A stretch of 64,000 nucleotides of DNA. Origin: Cordylochernes scorpioides. Taxonomy: Eukaryota; Arthropoda; Arachnida; Pseudoscorpiones; Chernetidae. Positions 11,793 to 55,244 of the stretch are shown piece by piece. Under the pieces are notes generated by a model. It ran no database searches. It saw only the letters and a list, made by a program, of their open reading frames with translations, and was not told the DNA's origin. The stretch is taken from assembly GCA_030710605.1 (NCBI GenBank), contig CP092863.1, forward strand, positions 135,871,069 through 135,935,068. Reading direction: 5' to 3'. Position numbers and translations under genes: made by a program. Within the stretch, counting starts at the first letter, position 1, and each line of letters begins with the position of its first letter.

Positions 11793-11884
11793 AGTCTTTA
11801 TTGTCGCCGGTCTTCTATTTTTTTAAGGAGGCAGAGTCAATTTTGTTCACACTTGGTTATTTCGTGTGTTTTATCCACTCATGA

Positions 11885-12225
11885 ACAAAACTTAAGGAAG
11901 TTGTACATTTTAGCATGTATATCGGGATTCAGACACTAACTCTGAAAGATATTACAGTGACCTTTATTGAAGACACACGAGATAACCAAGTGTGAACAAA
12001 ACTTAAGGAAGTTGTACATTTTGGCATGTATATCGGGATTCAGACACTAACTCTGAAAGATATTACAGTGACCTTTATTGAAGATACACGAGATAACCAA
12101 GTGTGAACAAAACTTAAGGAAGTTGTACCTTTTAGCATGTATATCGGGATTCAGACAATAACTCTGAAAGATATTACAGTGACCTTTATTGAAGATACAC
12201 GAGATAACCAAGTGTGAACAAAATT
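11885..12225 (+). repeat. three ~111 bp direct repeats (R111)
   Basis: Each unit runs AACTTAAGGAAGTTGTAC ... CGGGATTCAGACA ... GATATTACAGTGACCTTTAT ... GAGATAACCAAGTGTGAAC. Units start near 11889, 12000 and 12111 and differ at only a few sites. The same unit recurs four times at 38446-38885. Confidence 0.85.
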
Positions 12226-29400: not shown

Positions 29401-32400
29401 AGAGCATGTTGACGATACCAATTACGTTCTTGTAGAGCAAGGATTTATAAGAGCATGTTGACGATTCCAATTACGTTCTTGTAGAGCAAGGATCTACAAG
29501 AGCATGTTGACGATACCAATTACGTTCTTATAGAGCAAGGGTCTACAAGAGCATGTTGACGATACCAATTACGTTCTTGTAGAGCAAGGATCTACAAGAA
29601 CATGTTGATGATACCAATTACGTTCTTATAAAGCAAGGGTCTACAAGAGCATGTTGACGATACCAATTACGTTCTTGTAAAGCAAGGATCTACAAGAGCA
29701 TGTTGACGATACCAATTACGTTATTGTAAAGCAAGGATCTACAAGAACATGTTGATGATACCAATTACGTTCTTGTAAAGCAAGGATCTACAAGAACATG
29801 TTGACGATACCAATTACGTTATTGTAAAGCAAGGATCTACAAGAACATGTTGATGATACCAATTACGTTCTTGTAAAGCAAGGATCTACAAGAACATGTT
29901 GACGATACCAATTACGTTCTTGTAGAGCAAGGATCTACAAGAGCATGTTGACGATACCAATTACGTTCTTGTAGAGCAAGGATTTATAAGAGCATGTTGA
30001 CGATTCCAATTACGTTCTTGTAGAGCAAGGATCTACAAGAGCATGTTGACGATACCAATTACGTTCTTGTAGAGCAAGGGTCTACAAGAGCATGTTGACG
30101 ATACCAATTACGTTCTTGTAGAGCAAGGATCTACAAGAACATGTTGATGATACCAATTACGTTCTTATAAAGCAAGGGTCTACAAGAGCATGTTGACGAT
30201 ACCAATTACGTTCTTGTAAAGCAAGGATCTACAACAGCATGTTGACGATACCAATTACGTTATTGTAAAGCAAGGATCTACAAGAACATGTTGATGATAC
30301 CAATTACGTTCTTGTAAAGCAAGGATCTACAAGAGCATGTTGACGATACCAATTACGTTCTTGTAGAGCAAGGATCTACAAGAGCATGTTGACGATACCA
30401 ATTACGTTCTTATAAAGCAAGGGTCTACAAGAGCATGTTGACGATACCAATTACGTTATTGTAAAGCAAGGATCTACAAGAACATGTTGATGATACCAAT
30501 TACGTTATTGTAAAGCAAGGATCTAAAAGAACATGTTGATGATACCAATTACGTTATTGTAAAGCAAGGATCTACCAGAGCAGGTTGACGATACCAATTA
30601 CGTTCTTGTAAAGCAAGGACCTACAAGAGCATGTTAACGATACCAATTACGTTCTTGTAAAGCAAGGATCTACAAGAGCATGTTGACGATACCAATCTAA
30701 AGAGCGTACGTTCATGTAAAACAGGGACCTAACAGGGCATTTTGACACGATCCCAAATTCAAGATTTGACGTTCCAATGAACCTACCTGAGAATATTAAG
30801 GATTATAATGCCCTCCACGGAAGGTATCTCCACGGCTCGACCGTCCACCTCCATCTTGATGGCTCCTTGTAAGTCCTTACAGGCCTTCTTGGTGACCATT
30901 TTGCGGAATCCCATCTTGACGTAGACGCCCTTGTTGTGGAGCCTGTATATAGCGAATAACGTTATCCCTGGCACGTAGGTATTAGATTTTATCTACATAT
31001 CCCATTTATGATACACACACGTCATCAAAATTGAGAAGGTTTTAAGAATTTAGATATCTTTAAATTGAAACTGTCTTTTCCTGCAAATCATATTGGAATG
31101 GATACATATTACGTCGAGATGAACTTTTCCAAAATATTGTAAATTATATTCAATAGATGTTGATTTGATGTAAGCTTTTCTATAGTATATAAGATGTCGT
31201 GCTGACAACTGCTGTTGATGGTCATGTACGGACAAAGTTTCCATCTAGATGTCTTACAGACATCTGCTGTTGATGGCCATGTACAGACAATATAGCTGCC
31301 GTGTACACACCTGCTGTTGATGGTCATGTACACACAATGTTTCCATCTAGCTGTCTTACAGACACCTGCTGTTGATGGTCATGTACAGACAATATAGCTG
31401 CCGTATACACACCTGCTGTTGATGATCATGTACGGACAATGTTTCCATCTAGCTGTCTTACAGACACCTGCTGTTGATGGCTATGTACAGACAATATAGC
31501 TGCCGTGTACACACCTGCTGTTGATGATCATGTACGGACAATGTTTCCATCTAGCTGTCTTACAGACACCTGCTGTTGATGGCTATGTACAGACAATATA
31601 GCTGCCGTGTACACACCTGCTGTTGATGGTCATGTACACACAATGTTTCCATCTAGCTGTCTTACAGACACCTGCTGTTGATGGCTATGTACAGACAATA
31701 TAGCTGCCGTGTACACACCTGCTGTTGATGGTCATGTACACACAATGTTTCCATCTAGCTGTCTTACAGACACCTGCTGTTGATGGCTATGTACAGACAA
31801 TATAGCTGCCGTGTACACACCTGCTGTTGATGATCATGTACGGACAATGTTTCCATCTAGCTGTCTTACAGACACCTGCTGTTGATGGTCATGTACAGAC
31901 AATATAGCTGCCGTATACACACCTGCTGTTGATGATCATGTACGGACAATGTTTCCATCTAGATGTCTTACAGACACCTGCTGTTGATGGCTATGTACAG
32001 ACAATATAGCTGCCGTGTACACACCTACTGTTGATGGTCATGTACAGACAATATAGCTGCCGTGTACACACCTGCTGTTGATGGTCATGTACGGACAATG
32101 TTTCCATCTAGCTGTCTTACAGACACCTGCTGTTGATGGCTATGTACAGACAATATAGCTGCCGTGTACACACCTGCTGTTGATGATCATGTACACACAA
32201 TGTTTCCATCTAGCTGTCTTACAGACACCTGCTGTTGATGGCTATGTACAGACAATATAGCTGCCGTGTACACACCTGCTGTTGATGATCATGTACACAC
32301 AATGTTTCCATCTAGCTGTCTTACAGACACCTGCTGTTGATGGTCATGTACAGACAATATAGCTGCCGTGTACACACCTGCTGTTGATGATCATGTACGG

Positions 32401-35400
32401 ACAATGTTTCCATCTAGCTGTCTTACAGACACCTACTGTTGATGGTCATGTACAGACCATATAGCTGCCGTGTACACACCTACTGTTGATGATCATGTAC
32501 AGACAATATAGCTGCCGTGTACACACCTACTGTTGATGGTCATGTACAGACAATATAGCTGCCGTATACACACCTGCTGTTGATGGTCATGTACACACAA
32601 TGTTTCCATCTAGCTGTCTTACAGACACCTGCTGTTGATGGCTATGTACAGACAATATAGCTGCCGTGTACACACCTGCTGTTGATGATCATGTACGGAC
32701 AATGTTTCCATCTAGCTGTCTTACAGACACCTACTGTTGATGGTCATGTACAGACAATATAGCTGCCGTGTACACACCTGCTGTTGATGGTCATGTACAG
32801 ACAATATAGCTGCCGTGTACACACCTGCTGTTGATGGTCATGTACAGACAATATAGCTGCCGTATACACACCTGCTGTTGATGGTCATGTACACACAATG
32901 TTTCCATCTAGCTGTCTTACAGACACCTACTGTTGATGGTCATGTACAGACAATATAGCTGCCGTGTACACACCTGCTGTTGATGATCATGTACGGACAA
33001 TGTTTCCATCTAGCTGTCTTACAGACACCTACTGTTGATGGTCATGTACAGACAATATAGCTGCAGTGTACACACCTACTGTTGATGGTCATGTACAGAC
33101 AATATAGCTGCCGTGTACACACCTGCTGTTGATGATCATGTACGGACAATGTTTCCATCTAGCTGTCTTACAGACACCTACTGTTGATGGTCATGTACAG
33201 ACAATATAGCTGCAGTGTACACACCTACTGTTGATGGTCATGTACAGACAATATAGCTGCAGTGTACACACCTACTGTTGATGGTCATGTACAGACAATA
33301 TAGCTGCCGTGTACACACCTGCTGTTGATGATCATGTACGGACAATGTTTCCATCTAGCTGTCTTACAGACACCTACTGTTGATGGCTATGTACAGACAA
33401 TATAGCTGCCGTGTACACACCTGCTGTTGATGGTCATGTACAGACAATGTTTCCATCTAGCTGTCTTACAGACACCTGCTGTTGATGGCCATGTACAGAC
33501 AATATAGCTGCCGTGTACACACCTGCTGTTGATGATCATGTACGGACAATGTTTCCATCTAGCTGTCTTACAGACACCTACTGTTGATGGTCATGTACAG
33601 ACAATATAGCTGCCGTGTACACACCTGCTGTTGATGATCATGTACGGACAATGTTTCCATCTAGCTGTCTTACAGACACCTACTGTTGATGGTCATGTAC
33701 AGACAATATAGCTGCCGTGTACACACCTGCTGTTGATGGTCATGTACAGACAATGTTTCCATCTAGCTGTCTTACAGACACCTGCTGTTGATGGCCATGT
33801 ACAGACAATATAGCTGCCGTGTACACACCTGCTGTTGATGATCATGTACGGACAATGTTTCCATCTAGCTGTCTTACAGACACCTACTGTTGATGGTCAT
33901 GTACAGACAATATAGCTGCCGTGTACACACCTGCTGTTGATGATCATGTACGGACAATGTTTCCATCTAGCTGTCTTACAGACACCTACTGTTGATGGTC
34001 ATGTACAGACAATATAGCTGCCGTGTACACACCTGCTGTTGATGGTCATGTACACACAATGTTTCCATCTAGCTGTCTTACAGACACCTACTGTTGATGG
34101 TCATGTACAGACAATATAGCTGCAGTGTACACACCTACTGTTGATGGTCATGTACAGACAATATAGCTGCAGTGTACACACCTACTGTTGATGGTCATGT
34201 ACAGACAATATAGCTGCCGTGTACACACCTGCTGTTGATGATCATGTACGGACAATGTTTCCATCTAGCTGTCTTACAGACACCTACTGTTGATGGTCAT
34301 GTACAGACAATATAGCTGCCGTGTACACACCTGCTGTTGATGGTCATGTACACACAATGTTTCCATCTAGCTGTCTTACAGACACCTGCTGTTGATGGCT
34401 ATGTACAGACAATATAGCTGCCGTGTACACACCTGCTGTTGATGATCATGTACGGACAATGTTTCCATCTAGCTGTCTTACAGACACCTACTGTTGATGG
34501 CTATGTACAGACAATATAGCTGCCGTGTACACACCTGCTGTTGATGGTCATGTACACACAATGTTTCCATCTAGCTGTCTTACAGACACCTGCTGTTGAT
34601 GGCTATGTACAGACAATATAGCTGCCGTGTACACACCTGCTGTTGATGATCATGTACGGACAATGTTTCCATCTAGCTGTCTTACAGACACCTACTGTTG
34701 ATGGTCATGTACAGACAATATAGCTGCCGTGTACACACCTGCTGTTGATGGTCATGTACAGACAATATAGCTGCCGTGTACACACCTGCTGTTGATGATC
34801 ATGTACGGACAATATAGCTGCCGTGCACACACCTGCTGTTGATGATCATGTACGGACAATGTTTCCATCTAGCTGTCTTACAGACACCTACTGTTGATGG
34901 TCATGTACAGACAATATAGCTGCAGTGTACACACCTGCTGTTGATGGTCATGTACAGACAATATAGCTGCAGTGTACACACCTGCTGTTGATGATCATGT
35001 ACAGTACTGTCGTGCACGTACCTGCTGTTGATGATCATGTACAGACAATATAGCTGCAGTGTACACACCTGCTGTTGATGGTCATGTACAGTACTGTCGT
35101 GCACGTACCTGCTGTTGAAGCGGTCAGGATGCTCCTCCCTGGCGTTGTGAAAGTCCAGGCAGAGGTCGGCGTCTAGGCCGATGCCGAAGTAGTTGTTCAT
35201 GACGAAGATGGCCGTGTTGTCCTCCGAGGTAGCTGCGCTAGATGTGGTAGGAGTGCCAGCTGCCCCCTCTGGCTTCTCATCGGAGTGGAACACCACCGTC
35301 CACCTGCGCCCATATTGTCTCTCCGAGCTGTAGCATTGACCTGTCCATCTATAATAGATCGTCACCTTCAGTAATAATACTTTATTACATTTTTACGTTA

Positions 35401-38400
35401 CTATTTGATCCGGATGCAGCTCAGAGCCTTATTTTTAACAAATAGATGCTATTTCTTATCCCCGTGTGCAAATATTACACGAATTCCATGAGTGATCTCA
35501 TGGAATGGGGTATAGGGGTGCAGCTTTCGTTAATCATGACACCATGTTCCTGGCACACTTTGGTGAAAGTCTGACTTTGCCTGTAATTTGAGGCCGTTCC
35601 TTACATGGAAGCCTTTTCTGCCATCTCTAACATCAGTACAGACACAGTATCCCTGGAGAGGGACCCTTGCTGAGGTCTATCAACCGTGTCAGTTGAACTC
35701 AGGATTTTTAAAGAGGTCTTTCTCCTATTTATAACATTGCTGCTGTTGGTCCTCAACTGCTTATTCGTCAGTTATTCTGCTTGTTTCGCAGCTGGCCTTC
35801 ATATCTGAAGGTCGTTCCCCCATCTGCCACGAGGGCTTGGTTCATCAGTAGTGAATACTCTCATTCAATACTTTTATATCATTGTAGTAAGGTCTGTAGA
35901 GATAATATTTGATGATACCATTGAACAAAAACACATTGCCAATAATTTATCTTGAAGATAGAGGCTGCCTGGCCGGCATTCATATTTCTTGAAAAAATCT
36001 GTTACAAATTTTATTGATAGGTGGCATTTGAATCTATAAATTCAGAGCCTTATGTTCGTAGAGTATTACACACATGGACAAAACTTAAGGAAATTCCATC
36101 TTTCAGAATGTATATCGGGATTCAGACAATAACTCTGAAATATATTACAGTGACCTTTGTAGAACGACGTTTGACAAATTTTACCGCAAATGTTTCTTTT
36201 AAACGAAAATTCGTAATTTATTTTAAGGAGAAATAACGACTATTTCTATCCTTAGGGATGAAGTATGAAAGGATGAATTGTGAAGAGTAATGATAAACGG
36301 AAAAATAAAAGTGTCCAGGGATGGGAACAGTGACCTTTATCGAAGACACACGAGATAACCAAGTGTGAACAAAATTGCCTCTGTCTTCTTTTTTTAATAA
36401 AATAAAAGAGATATCCGGCGAAAAATCAGAGACTTTCCACTCTCACAGGTTTTGTCAATGAGTGTATATTTGTTTTATCCTTTTCTTCATCCTAAAAATA
36501 TTTATACATTTCAGTGTATAAATATACACATTTAAATACAGTTATGTTCCTCAAACATTTTGAAAATACAACCAAATACAGTAGAACTTATAGATTTATT
36601 ATATTAGACAATTCTAACGTCTTTAATTCCAATATTTATCTTGGGCCCTAGAATTTCCTATAAATAGTATTTCCGATTATAATCCGAATTTTTGGATAAT
36701 TCGATTTCTTTTTAGTCCCTTGGGCTTCGAATTATCTAATTTTGATTGTATTGGTTTGTTTAAAAATTTGAATTCAATAATTTGGTCTTAAAGGTTGAAA
36801 ACGAGTATTTGTGTGGGATGTTAGAAACATATTAAAAAGTTAGTTCCTTATCAAAACTTACTGGAATTTCACATTAGTTATAGAATTAGCTCCACACATC
36901 AAGGCAGGAAGGTTATCAATATGAGATATAATTCCTTATTAAAATTAGCTCCAAATTTACTAGCGAGTGTCCAGTCAAACACACATGTCAGGATGGCCGA
37001 GTGGTCTAAGGCGCCAGACTCAAGAGTAAATCTTATCCCGTTGCGGGAGTTGGGTGTTCTGGTCCACTGATGTGGGCGTGGTTTCGAATCCCACTTCTGA
37101 CACTTTTTTTTTGTCGGTGGACGAGTAGGTAAAACCCTCGATTCCCGACAGACATGAACCGGGATCGAATCCCGCGTTAGACCCTTTGTTTTAATATGTG
37201 AATAACCTTCATGTCCCTATGAGAGTAAATGGCTTTAAGGTTTTACTAGAGAAGCTGAGATGGCTTAAAAGTCGGTTACGCCAGTTAATAACCATTAAAA
37301 GAACAATACACATAAAAAGCGCTATTTTGGATCAATTATACGAAAGTTCCACTGCTTCAAAAGCAAATTTTAGCTCTCATCATTTATTTTTACTGCGGTA
37401 ATGCAATTTCATTGTTGCAAATATCATAAACTAGGTTGCTATTTTTGAGCGGTACCGAATAAAGTGATTTTGGAACAAGGAACAAGTCCAGTCCAACGTT
37501 CACAGCAGACCCCAGTACCACCAGTGTACAGCTCAGCCACCAGTGTCCCTGTACCTGTCCAGCCACCAGTGTTCCAGTACCTGTCCAGCCAGATCTCCTC
37601 TGCCTCTATGACGTCCCTCAGGAGGTTCAGTGGGTCCTCCCCGCCAGCGTAGCCCGCTCCCCAGCGCAGCACCCGCGCCAGATCGTTGCCCGTGCCCAGC
37701 GGGAGGATGGCGCAGGGCGGAGACTGGCACTCAGAGTCCTGCCCCACGTTGTCCAGGCACTGCAGCACCCAGCCCACCGTGCCGTCGCCGCCACAAACCA
37801 GGATCTTGTAGTCCCGGATATGGCGGAAAACGTAGAGTCCAGGCAGGGGACCCCCGTTGTCCAGGTCGTACACCTGGTAAGGGTTGAGAAGCCTCCTGAA
37901 GGAAGAGATCAGCTCCAGACCCTGGCAGCCGCCGCTCTTAACGTTTACAAACACCAGCAGGGGCTGGAAACACACGAGGCAGCGGTCAACTCGCGGTTAT
38001 ATACACACATACATACACATGGACAATACCTTTATCTTTCAGAATGTATATCAGGATTCAGACAATAACTCTTAAATATATTACAGTGCCCTTTATTGAA
38101 GAACACACGAGATAATCAAGTCTGAATAAAATTGCCTCTGTCTCCAAAAAAAAAAAAAAAAAAAAAAGACGACCGATGACATTAAAATATAAAACTTCTT
38201 TAAGTTTTGTCTCCATGAGTGTAAATGACTTCAAGATTTTACTATAGAAGCTGAGATGTCTTAAAAGTCCATTACGCCAGTTAATAACCATTAAAAGATC
38301 AATACCCATAAAAAAAAAGCGCGATTTTTGATCATGAATACTAAAATTTCTCTGTTTCAAAAGGAAATTTTAGCTCTCATCATTTATTTTTACTGCGGTA

Positions 38401-41400
38401 ACGTATTGTATATAAATATCTTTCAGGTGGCTAGAGAAAAATTAAAGAAGTTGTATCTTTTAGCATGTATATCGGGATTCAGACAATAACTCTAAAAGAT
38501 ATTACAGTGACCTTTATTGAAGACATACGAGATAACCAAATGTGAACAAAACTTAAGGAAGTTGTGCCTTTTAGCATGCATATCGGGATTCAGACAATAA
38601 CTCTGAAATATATTACAGTGACCTTTATTGAAGACACACGAGATAACCAAATGTGAACAAAACTTAAGGAAGTTGTGCCTTTTAGCATGCATATCGGGAT
38701 TCAGACAATAACTCTGAAATATATTACAGTGACCTTTATTGAAGACACACGAGATAACCAAATGTGAACAAAACTTAAGGAAGTTGTACCTTTTAGCATG
38801 CATATCGGGATTCAGATAATAACTCTGAAAGATATTACAGTGACCTTTATTGAAGACATACGTGATAACCAAGTGTGAACAAAATTGGCTCTTTAAAAAA
38901 TAAAAAAAAGAGAGATGACCAGCGATATCAAAGACTTTATACTTCCTTAAGTTATGTATATGAGTGTAGATGGTGTTTGTGATAAAAAAAAAAGTAACTT
39001 TTCCCTTTCTTCCAATGTGGATGGTGACGTACCTTGATGTTATCAGGGATGAGGTCCGGCTTCACTTTGGGCAGAAGCAGCACCAACAGCTGGCGGTCAT
39101 CAAACATAGCTTCCCGCAGCATGTAGAAGGCCTTCACGGCAATATCGGCGTTGTCGTACGTTATGATGAGCGACCCATACTCATAGTAGATAGGCCCAAT
39201 GGTCCGAAACCTGTAGGCCGCTATACACACACACACCCAACAAACTCAGCTTTTCAATAAAATAATCCATTGTAGCAATATTATGGTAAAAACATCAGAC
39301 ACTTCGAGATATATTTTTTTTTAAAGTCATCTTCTGATCGTGAAACTGAATCGGAACTCAATCGGAATAAATATCAACTATAACTGAAATAATGTAGAAA
39401 AATAGTATTTATCATTAATTTGTTAATGTGATACTCCTGTTGAAAATAAAAGGTTTGCACAAGAAACTTAGCTCTGAAAGCTTCATTTATTTTATTATAC
39501 ATTGTATGTATATTAAATGTATGGGGTTAGAGGAGTTCGACAACACTTCCCTGAGGTTCCCTCCTGGACTTTTGGAATATTTGACCGATTTCTGGTCCAA
39601 GGTGACTAACTTGATAAAAGGTACCCATTGTCCAATAAAGAGCTGTCCGATATTTTCAGTTGGACACGACAACAACAAGATTGCATGTACATCTGAAATC
39701 ATGCGTTGGATCTGGAGGCTGTTGTTGGGTTCTGTGCTGCCTAGAGTATAGAAGTTTCATCTATGCTATCTTTCTGTGGTGAATTTTGACTGACAATGAC
39801 AATGAAAACACACTTTATTGACCATTCAGTCAATGATCACACTCAAAGAGTCAATGGGAAAGATTTACAATTATTTACAATTATCCTGACTCTGTCAGGA
39901 GTCAACAGGGGGTGTCCTCAGGGAGGGTCTGGAACATAGGAAGGCAAGGCGGCCCTGAACTCAGATAGTCCCCTACGGATCAAGGGAACCGAGTCCCGAG
40001 TGCGCTCGATGAGCTTATCCAGGAATTGGGCGACAATCTTTTTCTGCCGCGGCGAAAGATCCGCGACCACGCACTCCCTCACCTCAGGGTCTCGGGCCGC
40101 GTCAACGAATTCGAACACTTCGATCTTGATAAAGCTGTGTGCATATCTGAAATATGTTAAGAGTGTAAGTATGCATATCTGAAATCACGCGTTGGACCTG
40201 GAGGCTGTTGTTGGTTTCTGTGCTGCCTGGAGTACAGGAGCTCCATCTATGCTTCCTTTCTTCAAGACTATTGGTCTTGATAAAGCTGTATGTAAGTGTA
40301 TATCTGAAATATGTTGAGTGTAGGTGTAAGTGAAGAGTGTATGAGCTACCTCAGCAGGTAGATAGTGAGAGGACTTACGCTTCGCCAACGTATGGAGCAG
40401 AATGTTCTCGTACTGACGCTCCGAGAGGTTGGGTGTGAGGTTGCCCACGAAGAGGGCCACGTTGGACGACGTGGTCGGCTTCTTCTTCTGCCGGAGGTAG
40501 AACCGCATCATGTCCCTCTGCCGGACGGACTCCTGGGACCACACGCATTTTTGTATCATTGTTAGGTAATCTCTCTGCCAGACGGACTCCTGGTCACACT
40601 CATTGTTGTTTTATTGTTAGGTAAGTTCTTTTTTGGACGAACTCCTGGTCACACTCATTGTTGTATCATTGTTATGTTATTGTTAGCTAAGCTCTTTGTT
40701 GAACGGACTCCTGGTCACACTTTGTTGTAACATTGTTAGGTAAGCTATTTGTTGGACGGACTCCTGGTCACACTCATTGTTGTATCATTTTTATGTTATT
40801 GTTAGGTAAGCTCTTTGTTGAACGGACTTCTGGTCACACTTCATTGTTGTATCATTGTTAGGTAAGTTCTCGGTTGAATGGACTCCTGGTCACACGTTAA
40901 CTCATTGTTGTATCATTGTTAGGTAAGTTCTCTGTTGGATGGACTCCTGGTCACACGTTAACTCATTGTTAGGTCAAATCTTTGTTGGACGGACTCCTGG
41001 GGCCACACGCCAACTCATTGTTGTTAGGTTAACTCTCTGTTGGATTTCTGGGACCACACGTCAACTCATTGTTATATCATTGTTAGTCAATTTTTGTTGG
41101 ACTGACTCCTATGAGTAATTTCTCATTATTTTAATGATTTCACTTTTGTGGAATATTTTAATTAAACTGCATAGCTTTGCCAAACCAAATCACGGAACTA
41201 CATTCAATTAAGAGTTGATAACAACATATTTCCCCTAGTACAATGTCAATCACAGTAACTCGCTCTATGCACACGTCGTCTACAGGTTTCTAGAAGAGTA
41301 AAAACGGTGATTTATCTACGTGGAATAACAAGACTGAGACATTGTAGATTCGTCGATCTTCAAATAGTTAGTATTCAACTGTGGAAACTAGACATGCGTC

Positions 41401-44045: not shown

Positions 44046-44630
44046 AACTTTGGATTATATTACATTTATACTTGTAATATATTTTTATTTATATATATCA
44101 ACACAACATATTGAATCATAGTCCTCACTCATTTTATTTTCTAATATTTATCAGTCTCTTCATTTATTTAATCAAATGGTTATTTAATCATATACTCTTT
44201 TAATTATTATTATTATTAAATTTAACAATTGTAAATATATTTTATATACAGTGAAATTTTCATTAGATGGTTTCTTGCTTTGGTCTTGTATAGCGTGAGT
44301 GGATCACATGCCCACGTGATTTAGTTTAAATCAAAGAAAAGCCTTGATAAAGAGAGGCGTGTTGCCCCTAGAAATATTGGCTGATTAATAAATTTATATC
44401 CAATATACGCTTTATATATATATATATATATATATGAAAAAATAGTACAAATGTAACATTGTACTGGGATAAGGTGCATAAATCATGAAAAAAGAAAAAG
44501 GCATCTCCTTATCGTGCAACTGAAAGTTGCTGATGGCTGAGCGCCATCTATCGGAATAAATATCAACTATTCTCGTTGATTTTTTTTATTCCATAATTGG
44601 CCAAATACCCATTCTTGATTAATCAAGAAA

Positions 44631-44684
44631 AGCTAACCACGGACGCGTTTCGGGCTGTTGGCCCTCATCAGCGTGGTGCAAGCT
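44631..44684 (-). ncRNA. hammerhead ribozyme, type I, unit 1
   Basis: Minus strand: stem I strands AGCT+ACCACG and CGTGGT+AGCT with an internal loop, core CTGATGA (44671-44665), stem II GGGC/GCCC with loop CAACA, GAAA, minimal stem III in ACGCGT and GTC, with predicted cleavage between 44642 and 44641. All invariant core bases of the hammerhead family are present. Confidence 0.92.
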
Positions 44685-44976
44685 GTACCTCAAAGACCAA
44701 AAAAAATTGGTCATTAAGGCATCCTGAAAAATCATGAAACGGGTAGTTAAGGCCAGAATTGCGTGAGGACTCTACACAATGTGAAAAAATAGTACAAATG
44801 TAACATTGTACTGGGATAAGGTGCATAAATCATGAAAAAGAAAAAGGCATCTCCTTATCGTGCAACTGAAAGTTGCTGATGGCTGAGCGCCATCTATCGG
44901 AATAAATATCAACTATTCTCGTTGATTTTTTTTATTCCATAATTGGCCAAATACCCATTCTTGATTAATCAAGAAA

Positions 44977-45030
44977 AGCTAACCACGGACGCGTTTCGGG
45001 CTGTTGGCCCTCATCAGCGTGGTGCAAGCT
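44977..45030 (-). ncRNA. hammerhead ribozyme, type I, unit 2
   Basis: Same core and stems as unit 1; CTGATGA at 45017-45011, predicted cleavage between 44988 and 44987. Confidence 0.92.
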
Positions 45031-45326
45031 GTACCTCAAAGACCAAAAAAAAAAATTGGTCATTAAGGCATCCTGAAAAATCATGAAACGGGTAGTTAAG
45101 GCCAGAATTGCGTGAGGACTCTACACAATGTGAAAAAATAGTACAAATGTAACATTGTACTGGGATAAGGTGCATAAATCATGAAAAAAGAAAAAGGCAT
45201 CTCCTTATCGTGCAACTGAAAGTTGCTGATGGCTGAGCGCCATCTATCGGAATAAATATCAACTATTCTCGTTGATTTTTTTTATTCCATAATTGGCCAA
45301 ATACCCATTCTTGATTAATCAAGAAA

Positions 45327-45380
45327 AGCTAACCACGGACGCGTTTCGGGCTGTTGGCCCTCATCAGCGTGGTGCAAGCT
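45327..45380 (-). ncRNA. hammerhead ribozyme, type I, unit 3
   Basis: CTGATGA at 45367-45361; predicted cleavage between 45338 and 45337. No base change in the ribozyme. Confidence 0.92.
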
Positions 45381-45680
45381 GTACCTCAAAGACCAAAAAA
45401 AAAAAAATTGGTCATTAAGGCATCCTGAAAAATCATGAAACGGGTAGTTAAGGCCAGAATTGCGTGAGGACTCTACACAATGTGAAAAAATAGTACAAAT
45501 GTAACATTGTACTGGGATAAGGTGCATAAATCATGAAAAAAGAAAAAGGCATCTCCTTATCGTGCAACTGAAAGTTGCTGATGGCTGAGCGCCATCTATC
45601 GGAATAAATATCAACTATTCTCGTTGATTTTTTTTTTATTCCATAATTGGCCAAATACCCATTCTTGATTAATCAAGAAA

Positions 45681-45734
45681 AGCTAACCACGGACGCGTTT
45701 CGGGCTGTTGGCCCTCATCAGCGTGGTGCAAGCT
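45681..45734 (-). ncRNA. hammerhead ribozyme, type I, unit 4
   Basis: CTGATGA at 45721-45715; the linker behind it has a duplicated AAAGACC and a long A run, making the distance to the next core 363 bp. Confidence 0.92.
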
Positions 45735-46043
45735 GTACCTCAAAGACCAAAAGACCAAAAAAAAAAAAAAAATTGGTCATTAAGGCATCCTGAAAAATCA
45801 TGAAACGGGTAGTTAAGGCCAGAATTGCGTGAGGACTCTACACAATGTGAAAAAATAGTACAAATGTAACATTGTACTGGGATAAGGTGCATAAATCATG
45901 AAAAAAGAAAAAGGCATCTCCTTATCGTGCAACTGAAAGTTGCTGATGGCTGAGCGTCATCTATCGGAATAAATATCAACTATTCTCGTTGATTTTTTTT
46001 ATTCCATAATTGGCCAAATACCCATTCTTGATTAATCAAGAAA

Positions 46044-46097
46044 AGCTAACCACGGACGCGTTTCGGGCTGTTGGCCCTCATCAGCGTGGTGCAAGCT
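46044..46097 (-). ncRNA. hammerhead ribozyme, type I, unit 5
   Basis: CTGATGA at 46084-46078; predicted cleavage between 46055 and 46054. Confidence 0.92.
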
Positions 46098-46390
46098 GTA
46101 CCTCAAAGACCAAAAAAAATTGGTCATTAAGGCATCCTGAAAAATCATGAAACGGGTAGTTAAGGCCAGAATTGCGTGAGGACTCTACACAATGTGAAAA
46201 AATAGTACAAATGTAACATTGTACTGGGATAAGGTGCATAAATCATGAAAAAAGAAAAAGGCATCTCCTTATCGTGCAACTGAAAGTTGCTGATGGCTGA
46301 GCGCCATCTATCGGAATAAATATCAACTATTCTCGTTGATTTTTTTTATTCCATAATTGGCCAAATACCCATTCTTGATTAATCAAGAAA

Positions 46391-46444
46391 AGCTAACCAC
46401 GGACGCGTTTCGGGCTGTTGGCCCTCATCAGCGTGGTGCAAGCT
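46391..46444 (-). ncRNA. hammerhead ribozyme, type I, unit 6
   Basis: CTGATGA at 46431-46425; predicted cleavage between 46402 and 46401. The A run in the following linker is 19 long. Confidence 0.92.
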
Positions 46445-46749
46445 GTACCTCAAAGACCAAAAAAAAAAAAAAAAAAATTGGTCATTAAGGCATCCTGAAA
46501 AATCATGAAACGGGTAGTTAAGGCCAGAATTGCGTGAGGACTCTACACAATGTGAAAAAATAGTACAAATGTAACATTGTACTGGGATAAGGTGCATAAA
46601 TCATGAAAAAAGAAAAAGGCATCTCCTTATCGTGCAACTGAAAGTTGCTGATGGCTGAGCGCCATCTATCGGAATAAATATCAACTATTCTCGTTGATTT
46701 TTTTTATTCCATAATTGGCCAAATACCCATTCTTGATTAATCAAGAAAA

Positions 46750-46786
46750 GCTAACCACGGACGCGTTTCGGGCTGTTGGCCCTCAT
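46750..46786 (-). ncRNA. truncated hammerhead ribozyme at the inversion centre
   Basis: The minus copy has GAAA, stem II and ATGAG but ends at CTCAT (46782-46786), so the first bases of CTGATGA and the upstream strand of stem I are missing. It abuts the start of the plus-strand half. Confidence 0.85.
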
Positions 46787-46794
46787 TGAGGTAC

Positions 46795-46848
46795 AGCTTG
46801 CACCACGCTGATGAGGGCCAACAGCCCGAAACGCGTCCGTGGTTAGCT
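46795..46848 (+). ncRNA. hammerhead ribozyme, type I, unit 8
   Basis: First plus-strand copy: CTGATGA 46808-46814, GAAA 46828-46831, GTC 46835-46837 with predicted cleavage after 46837; stem I pairs 46802-46807 with 46838-46843 and 46795-46798 with 46845-46848. Confidence 0.93.
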
Positions 46849-47158
46849 TTTCTTGATTAATCAAGAATGGGTATTTGGCCAATTATGGAATAAAAAAAAT
46901 CAACGAGAATAGTTGATATTTATTCCGATAGATGGCGCTCAGCCATCAGCAACTTTCAGTTGCACGATAAGGAGATGTCTTTTTCTTTTTTCATGATTTA
47001 TACACCTTATCCCAGTACAATGTTACATTTGTACTATTTTTTCACATTGTGTAGAGTCCTCACGCAATTCTGGCCTTAACTACCCGTTTCACGATTTTTC
47101 AGGATGCCTTAATGACCAATTTTTTTTTTTTTTTTTTTTTTTTTGGTCTTTGAGGTAC

Positions 47159-47212
47159 AGCTTGCACCACGCTGATGAGGGCCAACAGCCCGAAACGCGT
47201 CCGTGGTTAGCT
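47159..47212 (+). ncRNA. hammerhead ribozyme, type I, unit 9
   Basis: CTGATGA at 47172; predicted cleavage after 47201. The T run before it is 24 long, the longest of the array. Confidence 0.93.
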
Positions 47213-47510
47213 TTTCTTGATTAATCAAGAATGGGTATTTGGCCAATTATGGAATAAAAAAAATCAACGAGAATAGTTGATATTTATTCCGATAGATGGC
47301 GCTCAGCCATCAGCAACTTTCAGTTGCACGATAAGGAGATGCCTTTTTCTTTTTTCATGATTTATGCACCTTATCCCAGTACAATGTTACATTTGTACTA
47401 TTTTTTCACATTGTGTAGAGTCCTCACGCAATTCTGGCCTTAACTACCCGTTTCATGATTTTTCAGGATGCCTTAATGACCAATTTTTTTTTTTTTGGTC
47501 TTTGAGGTAC

Positions 47511-47564
47511 AGCTTGCACCACGCTGATGAGGGCCAACAGCCCGAAACGCGTCCGTGGTTAGCT
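47511..47564 (+). ncRNA. hammerhead ribozyme, type I, unit 10
   Basis: CTGATGA at 47524; predicted cleavage after 47553. Confidence 0.93.
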
Positions 47565-47857
47565 TTTCTTGATTAATCAAGAATGGGTATTTGGCCAATT
47601 ATGGAATAAAAAAAATCAACGAGAATAGTTGATATTTATTCCGATAGATGGCGCTCAGCCATCAGCAACTTTCAGTTGCACGATAAGGAGATGCCTTTTT
47701 CTTTTTCATGATTTATGTACCTTATCCCAGTACAATGTTACATTTGTACTATTTTTTCACATTGTGTAGAGTCCTCACGCAATTCTGGCCTTAACTACCC
47801 GTTTCATGATTTTTCAGGATGCCTTAATGACCAATTTTTTTTTGGTCTTTGAGGTAC

Positions 47858-47911
47858 AGCTTGCACCACGCTGATGAGGGCCAACAGCCCGAAACGCGTC
47901 CGTGGTTAGCT
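47858..47911 (+). ncRNA. hammerhead ribozyme, type I, unit 11
   Basis: CTGATGA at 47871; predicted cleavage after 47900. Confidence 0.93.
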
Positions 47912-48204
47912 TTTCTTGATTAATCAAGAATGGGTATTTGGCCAATTATGGAATAAAAAAAATCAACGAGAATAGTTGATATTTATTCCGATAGATGGCG
48001 CTCAGCCATCAGCAACTTTCAGTTGCACGATAAGGAGATGCCTTTTTCTTTTTTCATGATTTATGCACCTTATCCCAGTACAATGTTACATTTGTACTAT
48101 TTTTTCACATTGTGTAGAGTCCTCACGCAATTCTGGCCTTAACTACCCGTTTCATGATTTTTCAGGATGCCTTAATGACCAATTTTTTTTGGTCTTTGAG
48201 GTAC

Positions 48205-48258
48205 AGCTTGCACCACGCTGATGAGGGCCAACAGCCCGAAACGCGTCCGTGGTTAGCT
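48205..48258 (+). ncRNA. hammerhead ribozyme, type I, unit 12
   Basis: CTGATGA at 48218; predicted cleavage after 48247. Confidence 0.93.
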
Positions 48259-48561
48259 TTTCTTGATTAATCAAGAATGGGTATTTGGCCAATTATGGAA
48301 TAAAAAAAAATCAACGAGAATAGTTGATATTTATTCCGATAGATGGCGCTCAGCCATCAGCAACTTTCAGTTGCACGATAAGGAGATGCCTTTTTCTTTT
48401 TTCATGATTTATGCACCTTATCCCAGTACAATGTTACATTTGTACTATTTTTTCACATTGTGTAGAGTCCTCACGCAATTCTGGCCTTAACTACCCGTTT
48501 CATGATTTTTCAGGATGCCTTAATGACCAATTTTTTTTTTTTTTTTTGGTCTTTGAGGTAC

Positions 48562-48615
48562 AGCTTGCACCACGCTGATGAGGGCCAACAGCCCGAAACG
48601 CGTCCGTGGTTAGCT
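48562..48615 (+). ncRNA. hammerhead ribozyme, type I, unit 13
   Basis: CTGATGA at 48575; predicted cleavage after 48604. Its unit breaks off into the TA microsatellite at 48761. Confidence 0.93.
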
Positions 48616-48755
48616 TTTCTTGATTAATCAAGAATGGGTATTTGGCCAATTATGGAATAAAAAAAATCAACGAGAATAGTTGATATTTATTCCGATAGAT
48701 GGCGCTCAGCCATCAGCAACTTTCAGTTGCACGATAAGGAGATGCCTTTTTCTTT

Positions 48756-48760
<5 letters not shown>

Positions 48761-48827
<67 letters not shown>

Positions 48828-48833
48828 TATATA
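48761..48833. repeat. TA microsatellite
   Basis: About 35 TA repeats with one ACT interruption lie between the hammerhead array and Mariner-3. The opposite edge of the array also ends in TA repeats (44413-44435). Confidence 0.95.
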
Positions 48834-49020
48834 TACGAGAGGTCTGTTAAAAAAATATTCGATTTTCTTTTTTTGCGAAAACCCTTGTGAATTTCGTTAA
48901 AACGCGTTTGCATGATGCATGCTTAAAATTCTCCCGCCTGTCAATAGCGTCAGTTGATGGCAAGCAGCATTTGAGTGAGGTAGTGTTTAGTTCCCTCGTC
49001 GGATCTTCATTGTAAGGAAA

Positions 49021-50533: not shown

Positions 50534-51364
50534 ATGCCAAAAAGGAAGTCAGATACCGACACTCATTTTTCTGACAGAAACGATAATATGGAATTTAAAT
50601 TAATGAAAGAACAAATTAATTTACTAACACAAATTATAGAACAACAGACGATCTCAAATAAAAATCATATAAGTAAATTCTCTGGCCTCAATCAAGATAT
50701 AAATATTTTCTTTCGTAACATTGAGGATGCAACGAACGATGAACGAGACAGAAAAAATTTAGTTATTCTAAATTTAGAAGAAGAAGCTAAAAATATATTT
50801 TATCGATTGGGCTTAGAACAAGAGACTTATTTAAATATCAAACAGAAACTGTCCACAATCTATATATCAAAGAAGAAGACAACGTTGGAAGAATTGTTCA
50901 CTCACCAATTGGAAAAGCCAGAAAAAATTAACGATTATTACCATTTTAAGGTTGTGGGTGCATTAGAGAACTCACTTCCAAACAAACAGATTGTTGAAGC
51001 ACTTACGGCAGGTGTAACGTATGATTTGAAGAAAATGATATACACCAGGAACCCACAGACGCCTGAAGAATGGTTGGACTATGTAAACACCATCCAAAAG
51101 CGGCCAGTAACTCGAGGACAACCGACACCACAGCGTGGCCTCGACCGCTGGCAACCCGAATCCACTCCCCCGCCTAGCCAAGGTCATTACCGGCCACAAT
51201 ATGGGCAATTAGCAACTTTTCGTCGACCTGGAGATGGACGTTTTGCCTTTCGCAACTACGCGGATAACACGCTGCCCAAGGAACCCAGGGAACCAGCCAC
51301 ATCGAGCGGACATCAACCCAGATCACAAGGATGTGATCCCTCATCAAGGAAAGGACCAGCATAA
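50534..51364 (+). CDS. Gypsy-B gag-like protein
   Basis: 276 residues from the ATG at 50534 (AAAATGCC context). It starts PKRKSDTDTHFSDRND, has a helical part (FKLMKEQINLLTQIIEQQ) and then the gag core with FSGLNQDINIFFRNIEDATN, LVILNLEEEAKNIFYRLGLE and TLEELFTHQLEKPEKINDYY. The C-terminal 70 residues are Pro/Gln/Arg-rich and lack any CCHC zinc knuckle, so RNA binding probably uses the basic tail. It overlaps the pol frame by ~130 bases. Confidence 0.85.
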   Translation: MPKRKSDTDTHFSDRNDNMEFKLMKEQINLLTQIIEQQTISNKNHISKFSGLNQDINIFFRNIEDATNDERDRKNLVILNLEEEAKNIFYRLGLEQETYLNIKQKLSTIYISKKKTTLEELFTHQLEKPEKINDYYHFKVVGALENSLPNKQIVEALTAGVTYDLKKMIYTRNPQTPEEWLDYVNTIQKRPVTRGQPTPQRGLDRWQPESTPPPSQGHYRPQYGQLATFRRPGDGRFAFRNYADNTLPKEPREPATSSGHQPRSQGCDPSSRKGPA

Positions 51365-54300
51365 TGTAAGACTATTCTTTAATTTATCTATTTTCACCTT
51401 CAATGTTAAATTTCTTGTGGATACTGGCTCTACCATTAACCTAATATCTTTTGATTATTTGCATAAAATTTTGCCATCAGATATATTTCGAAATATAACT
51501 AAATATTCAGTTAATAAGCATTCTAGAATTAATACATTGAGTGGACCAATTCAACCTATATTTTATGTTATTTTACCAGTCAGTTTTTTTAAAAGAAAAG
51601 TTAGCTTAAAATTTTATATATTTAATCTACCATATGAAATTGCACTAATAGGATTATATACTCTAAAAAAATTAAAAACTAGAATTGACTTCAATAGAAA
51701 TGTAGTGAGTCAACAAGGCACAAATATTCCTGCTACTCTTTTTTATTTTGAAACAGATTTGGCTTATGTAAATGATGCATACAATGTGATAAATCCAGAT
51801 AGGAAATATAATATAAACCAACACCTTCATATTGTTAATACACAAATCTTAGATAATCACTGTGCACCTTCAGGAAGTAATCCACTCTATGTTAATCATT
51901 TACAACAGACACTTTCCACTCAATCAAGCATTCCAGGGGAAAATAAGTTAACCAGTGATTTAATTGATAAGTATCATAAGATAAACAGCTTATTAGACCT
52001 TAAGTTAATTAGGTTATTGAAAGAATTTGCTGAAATATTTCCTACAGACCCATTTAAAGTTCCTACCCTACATATCCAACCTGTACAGATTAAACCAAAT
52101 ACAGATAGAGTAATCAGGTTGCGGCCGTATAGAATTCCATTTACATATAGGAAAGAAATAGATATACAAATCAATGAGATGTTAAAAAATAATATAATAG
52201 AACCGGCCATAGGTGAATATGCTTCACCCATTACTCTAGTAAAAAAGAAAAATGGAACATTTAGAATGTGTGTGGATTTTCGAAAATTAAATGAACACAT
52301 TCCAGTTGATCCCCAACCTATACCATTAATAGAAGCAGTGATAGAAAAACTGTCGAAAGCTAAGTATTTTTCCAGCCTTGATTTGAGCAACGCTTATTGG
52401 ACAGTTCCTATCCATCCAGATTCTCGACCTTATTTAGCCTTCACCACCCACGCAGGAGTGTACATGTTTAAAAGATTACCTTTCGGGCTACGAAGCTCAC
52501 CACAGATCTTCGAGAGAGCTATTGGACAAATACTTAGAAAATATAACTTCCAATTTCTAGAACACTACTATGATGATTTTATAATTTTTTCTGATAGTTT
52601 TGAAGAACACTTAGAACATCTTCGTTTATTCTTCCAACTATGCAGGGCAGAAAATATCCGCCTCAACCTTAACAAATGTCAATTATGTAAGACCTCCATT
52701 AGCTTCCTAGGATACGAAATCACACAGGGCACTTATAAACCTCACCTAACTAACACTCAGGTAATAGGAACCATCCAACCTCCGACTAATGTTAAAACTT
52801 TACAGTCATTTTTAGGTGTCGTAAATGTATATCATAAATTCATTCCCCATTATGCACAGCTTAGATCGCCTTTAAATATACTTCTTAAAAAGAATATTCC
52901 TTTTAAGTGGACTCTTGAATGTCAGAAGGCATTTGAAGATTTGAAAAGCAGCCTAACTGCATCACCAGTTTTACATATCTTTAAAGAAGATTTACCCTGC
53001 TTCTTATATTGTGACGCGAGTACATTAGGGATATCCGGAATTCTAAAGCAAAAGGATGAAAATGGAGAAGAACATCCTGTACAATATTTCTCTCGCTCTC
53101 TACGCAAGTATGAACAGAACTACTCCATCTCGGAGCTGGAGTGTTTAGCTATCATTGAGTCTATCGAATACTTCAGGGTGTACCTGCTTGGTAGACATTT
53201 CACCATTTATTCTGATCACCAAGCTCTGGTCTATTTGAAAAATATTAAAAATCCGTCAGGTAGGTTATTTCGGTGGTCCTTGAGACTCAGCCCATACACT
53301 TTTGACATACACTATCTGAAAGGTAAAAAACAACTCGAAGCAGACTTGCTATCAAGACAACCATTTTGCGGTTTTCTAGAGGCTCAACAATTGGAGGGAC
53401 ACCAGCATCGTGTACCTGAGAAATATCAATCACTCATCAATACTGATGGACTTGCGATTATTACTAAAAAGGGCGTACCCAGAGTAGTCGTACCTGATAC
53501 ACTAAGAAATAAGTTACTCCAGAAAGCACACGAATGGTATAACCATCCAGGAATCACACAACTCACTAGGTTAATCACTAGTCAGTATTATTGGGATGGT
53601 ATGACCAAAGATATAAATAACTATGTCCGTAAATGCAAAATTTGCCAAATAGTAAAACCTCCGAAAGGACCCACATATGGAGAAATGGGTACCTTACCAC
53701 TCGCGAAGGAACCTTATGAACTTATGTCAATGGACACAGTAGCCGGATTTACTAAGTATGGTGGTAACCGAGCTTATTTACATGTAATATGTGATCACAT
53801 GAGTCGATACTGTTGGACTTTTCCTAGTAAATCTACCTCTACCCTGACCTATATTCAAATCCTAAAAAGGGTATTTCAGGAAGGTATTCCTAAAAACCTA
53901 CTGACAGACCGAGCTCCTGCATTTACATCCGCTCAATTTAGAAGGTTTTTAATCTCACAAGGTATAAAACCCTTGTATACCACAGCAAATCACCCACAGT
54001 CAAATGGTTTGAGCGAGAGATTGAATGCAACCATAACAGGGAAACTAAAGATACTCCATTTAGAACACCCCAAACAGACATGGACCAAACAGATAGAGAG
54101 GGTCACCAGAATCTACAATCTAACTCCACATACAGTGACGGGATTTACTCCCATCTATTTATTAAAAGGGATAGTCCCTAACAATTTAAACAACCATGTT
54201 CAGACATTTCCCGAACTCTCAGAAGCAAGAAGAATAGCATTACAAAAGACCCAAGCAAGGCATAAGGCCGAAAAACTAATGTACGATCAAAAACATAAAA

Positions 54301-55244
54301 AGATTGATTTTGTACCAGGGGATCTAGTATTGGTGAAAGTTTATATACATCCGAATACTCCAAAGTTGGAACCTAACTATACAGGCCCATATGAGATCTT
54401 GGAAATACTATCACCTCAGGTAGTGCGCATTAATAGACCAAATAGACCTTTGCAGTTACAGACAGAAATTATAAATATAGAAAAACTTCGTAGATATGTA
54501 GAAAATATTCCCCATATCACACCTCCTACGGACCTTCCCGACTCTCCTCCTAGACAAAACTATTTTCTATTTCCTTATAGGCACTTCACTACAGATATCT
54601 TGGGTGATCCGGGTTCCTCCAGACCAAGGAAATGGTTTCAACCGTTTAACCATTTGGACAACAGTATTTTCACGGATGAAAAATTTTATAAGCCTGATTT
54701 TCCAATAACATCCAAACCAACTTTTTCATCAATAGTAAAGCCCACTAAATCCAGTACATTGGTCTTAGACCCTAAAATCAATCCATTCGATAATATGGTG
54801 GAAAGTAATTTGGGTGCTACCAAAGAAAAATTACACAGTAAACTTAATCCAAATGCTGATGTCTTTATACCAACAACCTTGGCGACCAAAGAATTTTCAC
54901 ATTATTTAAATAAAGACTCGTTAATAAATAATGTTATCACTCTGTGTACATTTTTGTATAAAACTGTTATATTTAGAATTAAAAAATTTCCATTGTTTTT
55001 AATTACCACAATAATATTTTGGATTCTTTATACTCATTTAGCATCTTGTATATACCTTCTTCCTTTATTGTTTTATATCTTGCCTCTACCCATACAAACA
55101 AACCTACATATTTCTTATAAAATGTTCTTGATAAAATGTACCGTTAGAATAGTGGAATATATAAATTTGTATATAAATGTAATGTTGGACTATATGAGGC
55201 GATATGATAATTTTAATCAAGCTATAAACTCAAATGATATATGA
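51234..55244 (+). CDS. Gypsy-B pol polyprotein with hydrophobic C-terminal extension
   Basis: 1336 codons without a break, in the +1 frame relative to gag; the true N-terminus depends on the gag-pol shift. Approximate positions: protease KFLVDTGSTINLIS (60-73), reverse transcriptase CVDFRKLNEH (346) and catalytic YYDDFIIFS (445), RNase H LYCDASTLGIS (591) and YSDHQALVYL (658), integrase zinc finger HEWYNHPGI...CKICQ (766-805), catalytic D, D, E in MDTVAG, LTDRAPAF and LSERLNAT (833, 890, 926), then a GPYEIL-type end (~1055). About 250 further residues include ~1225-1300 with several strongly hydrophobic stretches (FPLFLITTIIFWILYTHLAS). Such a tail is not normal for Gypsy pol. Confidence 0.93.
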   Translation: MDVLPFATTRITRCPRNPGNQPHRADINPDHKDVIPHQGKDQHNVRLFFNLSIFTFNVKFLVDTGSTINLISFDYLHKILPSDIFRNITKYSVNKHSRINTLSGPIQPIFYVILPVSFFKRKVSLKFYIFNLPYEIALIGLYTLKKLKTRIDFNRNVVSQQGTNIPATLFYFETDLAYVNDAYNVINPDRKYNINQHLHIVNTQILDNHCAPSGSNPLYVNHLQQTLSTQSSIPGENKLTSDLIDKYHKINSLLDLKLIRLLKEFAEIFPTDPFKVPTLHIQPVQIKPNTDRVIRLRPYRIPFTYRKEIDIQINEMLKNNIIEPAIGEYASPITLVKKKNGTFRMCVDFRKLNEHIPVDPQPIPLIEAVIEKLSKAKYFSSLDLSNAYWTVPIHPDSRPYLAFTTHAGVYMFKRLPFGLRSSPQIFERAIGQILRKYNFQFLEHYYDDFIIFSDSFEEHLEHLRLFFQLCRAENIRLNLNKCQLCKTSISFLGYEITQGTYKPHLTNTQVIGTIQPPTNVKTLQSFLGVVNVYHKFIPHYAQLRSPLNILLKKNIPFKWTLECQKAFEDLKSSLTASPVLHIFKEDLPCFLYCDASTLGISGILKQKDENGEEHPVQYFSRSLRKYEQNYSISELECLAIIESIEYFRVYLLGRHFTIYSDHQALVYLKNIKNPSGRLFRWSLRLSPYTFDIHYLKGKKQLEADLLSRQPFCGFLEAQQLEGHQHRVPEKYQSLINTDGLAIITKKGVPRVVVPDTLRNKLLQKAHEWYNHPGITQLTRLITSQYYWDGMTKDINNYVRKCKICQIVKPPKGPTYGEMGTLPLAKEPYELMSMDTVAGFTKYGGNRAYLHVICDHMSRYCWTFPSKSTSTLTYIQILKRVFQEGIPKNLLTDRAPAFTSAQFRRFLISQGIKPLYTTANHPQSNGLSERLNATITGKLKILHLEHPKQTWTKQIERVTRIYNLTPHTVTGFTPIYLLKGIVPNNLNNHVQTFPELSEARRIALQKTQARHKAEKLMYDQKHKKIDFVPGDLVLVKVYIHPNTPKLEPNYTGPYEILEILSPQVVRINRPNRPLQLQTEIINIEKLRRYVENIPHITPPTDLPDSPPRQNYFLFPYRHFTTDILGDPGSSRPRKWFQPFNHLDNSIFTDEKFYKPDFPITSKPTFSSIVKPTKSSTLVLDPKINPFDNMVESNLGATKEKLHSKLNPNADVFIPTTLATKEFSHYLNKDSLINNVITLCTFLYKTVIFRIKKFPLFLITTIIFWILYTHLASCIYLLPLLFYILPLPIQTNLHISYKMFLIKCTVRIVEYINLYINVMLDYMRRYDNFNQAINSNDI

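Follow-up and report, generated by a model that had tools for sequence, protein, structure and literature searches.

We analysed a 64,000-nt stretch of the genome of the pseudoscorpion Cordylochernes scorpioides (positions 135,871,069 to 135,935,068 of contig CP092863.1, assembly GCA_030710605.1), which we call the window. The window contains an array of 12 complete type I hammerhead ribozyme cores in units of ~350 bp, six on the minus strand and then six on the plus strand, and the array is flanked by (TA)n tracts. The element that forms this array is a non-coding, retrozyme-like element. We think that the array is probably a single insertion of a non-autonomous animal retrozyme that lacks long terminal repeats (non-LTR), and that both strands of a staggered cut in the target primed reverse transcription at two sites of one RNA, which was probably circular.

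Inverted arrays and their two end sites

We number the unit from the base that follows the hammerhead cleavage site (position 1). The left arm of the window array (44436..46786) holds 6.8 units with the ribozyme sense on the minus strand, and the right arm (46787..48760) holds 5.7 units with the ribozyme sense on the plus strand. The two arms meet head to head at 46786..46787, where they have 1 to 4 bases in common. The outer end of the left arm lies next to a (TA)n target tract (44412..44435), at unit position ~210, and ends with CTATTTTTTCA (site B); its inner end is at unit position ~321. The outer end of the right arm lies next to an (AT)n target tract (48760..48835), at unit position ~157, and ends with CTTTTTTCA (site A). 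No stop-to-stop frame of at least 110 amino acids overlaps the array. This agrees with an earlier reading of the window that used only its letters (the sequence-only reading), which had found no protein frame in the unit. In particular, no frame of that size over the array encodes the reverse transcriptase (RT) or GIY-YIG domain that a Penelope-like element (PLE) would encode. Non-coding units of 346–364 bp are within the 150–450 bp criterion for the tandem units of animal non-LTR retrozymes, and the GC content of the array (0.35–0.40 in 2-kb bins across it) is below the 45–50% retrozyme criterion.

The same inverted form is present elsewhere in the genome. When we searched the genome with the junction region, we obtained 355 matches, and many places were hit in both orientations. 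Our set of loci consists of the window and 39 other distinct places among the matches listed (L009–L047); the list comes from 40 scored candidates out of 977. All 40 contain one or more minus-then-plus pairs of arms, and the arms are up to 9.4 units long. In total, there are 47 pairs, not all of which are independent (L013 and L014 have a junction in common, as do two small pairs in L039). The search query spanned the inverted junction, so the first 20 loci (L009–L028) favour inverted arrays. The other 19 (L029–L047) were listed by matches to a part of the query with a single orientation, and all 19 are inverted; the first selection step may still have favoured them. Plus-then-minus neighbours were seen in three cases, each of which resembles two insertions side by side. 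A query with a single unit found 15 further places, five of which (C12:20.02, C11:21.61, C8:0.85, C2:79.9, and C3:99.0 Mb) have units or ends in opposite orientations. The sequence-only reading was right that the window array is inverted and left this unexplained, though the inversion is found at every locus that we examined. From its recurrence in the DNA, the inversion looks like a signature of insertion.

The outer ends of the arms follow a simple rule. We classified ends at unit positions 145–162 as A and ends at unit positions 200–218 as B, and we considered the insertions whose two arms each exceed 95% identity to the unit. There are 33 of these insertions, and both outer ends could be assigned for 31. 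Every one of the 31 has one A end and one B end (17 with B on the left and A on the right, 14 with A on the left and B on the right), and none is A/A or B/B. If the ends were chosen independently and with equal probability, then the chance of obtaining 31 mixed pairs would be 2^-31. If we consider all 47 pairs instead, 38 of the 39 pairs with both ends assigned are mixed and one is A/A; each of the other eight has an unassignable end. Pattern searches for the exact ends gave a similar picture: among 100 listed of 132 A ends, no two formed an A(-)/A(+) pair at a distance of up to 10 kb, and among 100 listed of 2,663 B ends, there were no B(-)/B(+) neighbours within 15 kb. One stretch of C1 is in both lists and has three A ends; for two of them, a B partner lies no more than 3 kb away, and for the third, none is listed.

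The template of an insertion and the joining of its arms

Each insertion has a single monomer haplotype. Across the 33 insertions, and leaving out the T-tract region (positions 255–292), we found 52 substitutions that are private to a single unit, six that are fixed in every unit that covers the position, and one that is in two units of one arm. Fixed variants are present on both arms (15 of 15 units in L020, six of six in L033, and five of five in L047). The variants in L033 and L047 are absent from other loci, and the variant in L020 is found once each in L013 and L028. Because substitutions are mostly private or fixed, the pattern points to both arms of an insertion having been copied from one monomer sequence.

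These counts also bear on whether the array could be an ordinary satellite, formed by local tandem duplication and inversion, or an error in the assembly. Near-equal lengths of the tandem units would fit a satellite. However, the copies are dispersed over many chromosomes, their ends are fixed, their polarity is constant, and their junctions differ; moreover, the variants shared by a subset of units that are expected from unequal crossing-over are almost absent. Given one such variant versus 52 private ones, together with the fixed outer ends, we rejected satellite amplification; given the dispersed loci, fixed ends, different junctions, and constant polarity, we also rejected an assembly artefact. 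We give this explanation hardly any credence.

In a few arrays, the lengths of the T-tracts differ strongly among units (from 8 to 25 in the window). We compared tract lengths between arms for 15 of the 33 insertions, namely those with uneven tracts (the uniform ones and L040 were left out). The tracts are not in step between the arms, whether they are counted from the outer ends (P 0.65) or from the junction (P 0.82); tracts may also have changed after insertion. The raw correlation of tract length between arms (0.40, 46 pairs) reflects differences between insertions, because shuffling within insertions leaves no signal. The mismatch between arms argues against a shared heterogeneous multimer as the template and against snap-back copying.

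Snap-back copying, or self-priming, means that the first complementary DNA (cDNA) from one end of the target folds back and copies itself, which gives an inverted repeat. In PMC3846280, head-to-head Penelope repeats of a rotifer with palindromes at their junctions were read in this way (there, with an antisense template). The retrozyme junctions have some features that also fit fold-back, as both arms often have bases in common. Exact overlap averages 2.3 nt in 23 of 33 junctions, versus 0.70 nt for random junctions; after removing one 18-nt palindrome, the mean is 1.6 (P 0.0008). The remaining 10 of 33 junctions have filler or an early mismatch. The junctions vary from insertion to insertion, and their positions are scattered across the entire unit. 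However, self-priming predicts that private mutations and tract lengths should be mirrored between the arms, and neither is mirrored. It also leaves the fixed yet different outer ends of 31 of 31 insertions unexplained. We rejected self-priming because the private variants are not mirrored, and we consider it quite improbable.

Another alternative is that the RNA primed from both ends was a linear multimer, transcribed from a genomic array, and not a circle. Arms of up to 9.4 units would be consistent with this. Also, PMC11167929 describes the RNA of an anole PLE as a presumed multi-copy transcript and reports that this element still inserts in vitro when its hammerhead is mutated. A single monomer haplotype per insertion, and tract lengths that are not shared unit by unit, speak against a linear multimer, but one homogeneous array could give a single haplotype if the tracts mutate quickly. 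Overall, we consider a linear multimer to be unlikely, if less so than self-priming. As for the circle, the circular monomer is predicted to fold at -114.3 kcal/mol, versus -70.0 +/- 5.4 kcal/mol for 200 shuffles (z -8.2), so by prediction the monomer circle is highly self-paired, as in other retrozymes. A circular template is the simplest reading of these patterns, and a homogeneous multimer also fits.

The hammerheads and the rest of the window

A sequence search found 12 copies in the window of the exact 30-nt core CTGATGAGGGCCAACAGCCCGAAACGCGTC. Cores 1–6 are on the minus strand, at 44642..44671, 44988..45017, 45338..45367, 45692..45721, 46055..46084, and 46402..46431. Cores 7–12 are on the plus strand, at 46808..46837 (with predicted cleavage after 46837), 47172..47201, 47524..47553, 47871..47900, 48218..48247, and 48575..48604. 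All 12 also gave permissive matches in Rfam. The cleavage sites are 346–363 bp apart in the minus arm and 347–364 bp apart in the plus arm. These copies confirm the count of 12 complete cores in the sequence-only reading, six minus and then six plus at intervals of 346–364 bp. A 13th hammerhead at the centre of the array (~46759–46786, minus strand) is cut by the junction: stem II, GAAA, and stem III are kept, while CTG and the 5' strand of stem I are absent.

The sequence-only reading would have given up the hammerheads if no Rfam model matched above its threshold. At gathering scores, Rfam does not report any hammerhead for the window. In E-value mode, each of the 12 cores matches RF02275 (Hammerhead_HH9) at 26.5 bits, as compared to a gathering score of 52 (E 0.0017 over the 4.6 kb searched, or 0.024 over the whole window). 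We did not take this shortfall as a refutation because the exact core recurs 12 times and its variants stay paired. Specifically, we searched the loci for the core and compared six variants of the motif chosen in this way, three of which come from old copies that are 72–73% identical to the unit. In these variants, 94.9% of stem cells are paired, versus 25–39% with slid partners, and three pairs are changed on both sides. Among 500 shuffle controls, the paired cells, the doubly changed cells, and the covariation score were each reached by two shuffles, while the doubly changed pairs were reached by 163 shuffles and the further pair types by 332. With such mixed controls, we view the pairing test as supportive and not conclusive. 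Sequence and variant pairing both indicate that stems I and II are intact in the window's cores, as in type I hammerheads, and we accept that the unit is a non-coding, retrozyme-like tandem unit with hammerheads of this type.

Stem III is unusual in that it consists of ACGCGU, which could form a single A-U pair capped by a palindromic CGCG or else a six-pair duplex between two units. Two copies of the hammerhead are predicted to co-fold at -43.4 kcal/mol, and one copy at -18.8 kcal/mol. According to the main text of PMC7229834, amphibian hammerheads with such a weak stem III cleave well only as dimers. The amphibian satellite hammerheads described there (from newt, and HHR_Amex1 from axolotl) likewise have a weak stem III with one pair and a palindromic tetraloop, perform better as dimers, and have units of ~330–350 bp; the host differs, and we draw the likeness from that description. 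Because stem III resembles that of these dimer-dependent hammerheads, the claim that the unit has the layout of fast-cleaving ribozymes is doubtful. The units of the array are predicted to yield monomers of ~350 nt, which may circularise.

Other hammerheads turned up in the loci that we examined. A second, unrelated family of type I hammerhead-like motifs, with a palindromic stem III (ACCATGGT), is found at L024:1735, L025:2595, L034:170, and L040:1377, and its copies are also minus then plus in L025 and L034. Old relatives of the window's retrozyme, ~72–76% identical and with hammerhead cores or parts of them, are found at L029:4144, L036:538, L043:2112, L016:469, and L017:897.

The rest of the window includes several other repeats. 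Three tandem copies of a 361-bp AT-rich unit (24829–25905) are close in length to the retrozyme unit and have no hammerhead match. Two arrays that are 26 kb apart (11882–12223 and 38437–38884) apparently have the same 111-bp unit. There are also neighbouring minisatellites at 28902–30696 (a 49-bp unit, 37 times) and 31205–35118 (47/102-bp units), and two long frames of the LTR-retrotransposon type with RT, RNase H, and integrase domains (51213–55244 and 8261–10855). Finally, a piece of a diacylglycerol kinase gene is on the minus strand at 37439–37996, and near it, at 36987–37102, is a tRNA match with a long insert that is probably an intron.

Penelope-like elements and a proposed model of insertion

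GIY-YIG matches are plentiful in this genome, with eleven close minus-then-plus pairs among the matches listed. One element, L049, encodes both an RT and a GIY-YIG domain, and there is a hammerhead-like motif close to its 3' end. A search with this 3' end gave 41 matches; 24 of these form 12 close minus-then-plus pairs, and there are no plus-then-minus pairs among the 41. In all 12 pairs, which are the basis for the end rule in this element (the other 17 matches are outside of pairs), one end is short and ends with CTATTTTTTATATAA, and the other has a ~35-nt tail that ends with CTATCTTTAC. The tail is on the left in six pairs and on the right in six. A direct repeat of 10–13 bp adjoins the ends in all 12; in mismatched pairs, by comparison, the repeat averages 5.1 and never exceeds 10. 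The retrozyme has the same Penelope-like arrangement, head to head with one plain and one extended end, in 31 of 31 insertions. As a separate observation, L048 (C1:8986000–8993500) has two inverted arms, each 3.3 kb or longer, that are separated by a ~364-bp spacer, and a long frame with its GIY-YIG domain on the N-terminal side. A Pfam search of L048 gave no RT. It is presumably a permuted Penelope-like element, and the end rule does not draw on it.

PMC3846280 and PMC11167929 describe PLEs with an optional "tail" of ~30–40 nt at one end and short target duplications. Endonuclease-bearing (EN+) elements of the Penelope/Poseidon group are, as described there, similar to the window element in being head to head, with AT-rich targets, two internal start sites, and hammerheads. 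The window element differs from PLEs in several ways: it lacks a frame for RT or GIY-YIG, the distance between its two sites is 53 nt and their sequences are others, and its copies are multimers of small units. The animal non-LTR retrozymes of coral, mussel, and axolotl, as given by Cervera and de la Pena (2020) in the main text of PMC7229834, likewise have type I hammerheads, non-coding tandem units of ~170–400 bp, low GC content, and a self-paired predicted circle. In contrast to these, our element is in a pseudoscorpion, its arrays are head to head, and it has two end sites that are each used once. A term search of that main text found no mention of inverted or head-to-head arrays, and a keyword search of the accessible text of the Schistosoma W-element paper found nothing on inverted arrays. 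We also found no literature that joins pseudoscorpions to hammerhead ribozymes, in a search that mostly did not extend to subscription papers. As far as this limited search goes, two points are new: that the ends of a retrozyme follow a two-site rule, and that inverted arrays are interpreted as the outcome of priming from both ends on a single RNA.

We propose that insertion would proceed as follows. Hammerheads would cut a read-through transcript into monomers of ~347 nt, which would then circularise. An endonuclease/reverse transcriptase of the Penelope-like type would make a staggered cut of ~12 bp in an AT-rich target, and both of the exposed 3' ends would prime reverse transcription inside one RNA, each from its own start point (near positions 157 and 210). 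Both enzymes would circle the RNA several times, which would produce tandem units, and the two cDNA ends would be joined in the middle of the array, often at a few common bases. The minus arm would derive from the left cDNA and the plus arm from the right cDNA, with the 3' sides of the RNA facing outward, which matches the form that we observed. In the twin priming of L1 elements, both strands of the target likewise prime on RNA and give inverted structures; this is an occasional variant in L1, and to our knowledge it does not involve a pair of dedicated internal sites.

The single use of each start site in an insertion suggests that one RNA, in one complex, provides both starts. There are precedents for parts of this scheme. 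PMC11167929 describes an anole PLE protein that cuts both strands, extends both of them, and begins copying at two neighbouring sites inside the RNA; it was modelled as a dimer. In the portions of that paper that we consulted, we found no statement on whether a single event uses both sites. PMC7229834 proposed that retrozyme circles are copied by priming from target DNA or a small RNA, with PLEs as a candidate source of the enzyme. A more specific version of our proposal is that one ribonucleoprotein has two RT/endonuclease subunits on adjacent sites of one RNA, that each subunit cuts one strand and starts its own cDNA, and that this is general for endonuclease-bearing PLEs and their retrozymes. 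We see the odds for and against this version as about even.

Several observations weigh against insertion by two-ended priming on one circular RNA. First, if we define a clear target repeat as at least eight flank bases that are next to both ends and that contain G or C, then only six of 37 retrozyme insertions have one (8–13 bp; L011, L014, L021, L022, L032, and the older pair of L038), as compared to 2% among mismatched left and right flanks. Outside of these six, the flanks are too rich in AT for a repeat to be told from chance. Where a G or C does lie close to an end (24 insertions), plain repeat length is 8.9, only slightly more than the 7.0 of mismatched pairs. Animal retrozymes that have a target duplication are expected to have one above 4 bp; the window's own repeat is AT-only and has no definable bounds. 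Second, some ends do not fit well. An ancient pair in L017 (~70% identical) scored as A/A. Two insertions that are not among the 31 are also irregular: the right end of L026 is at unit position 49, and the right arm of L027 has an internal deletion, so that the second end is reached only past the deletion. Genome-wide, there are 132 exact matches to the A end and 2,663 to the B end; older copies seem to carry a different A-end sequence, perhaps of the form CTTTTTCTT/AAT (the slash marks the end). Third, the end sites of the retrozyme differ from those of the PLE that we examined, and for the anole PLE, PMC11167929 reports no observed difference in start site between the two strands. Fourth, DNA sequence alone cannot separate a circle from a homogeneous multimer.

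The cited literature leaves open how retrozymes move and why copies of PLEs are inverted with an optional tail. A rule by which each strand has its own site and each site serves a single time predicts a complex of two subunits on one RNA. If this is correct, then such a mechanism would explain both the inverted repeats and the optional tail of PLEs and retrozymes. On a circular RNA, two cDNAs that follow each other round the ring would write tandem arrays. The retrozyme is a good reporter for this process, as it is small and abundant and its copies are nearly identical, so that the ends and junctions record each insertion.

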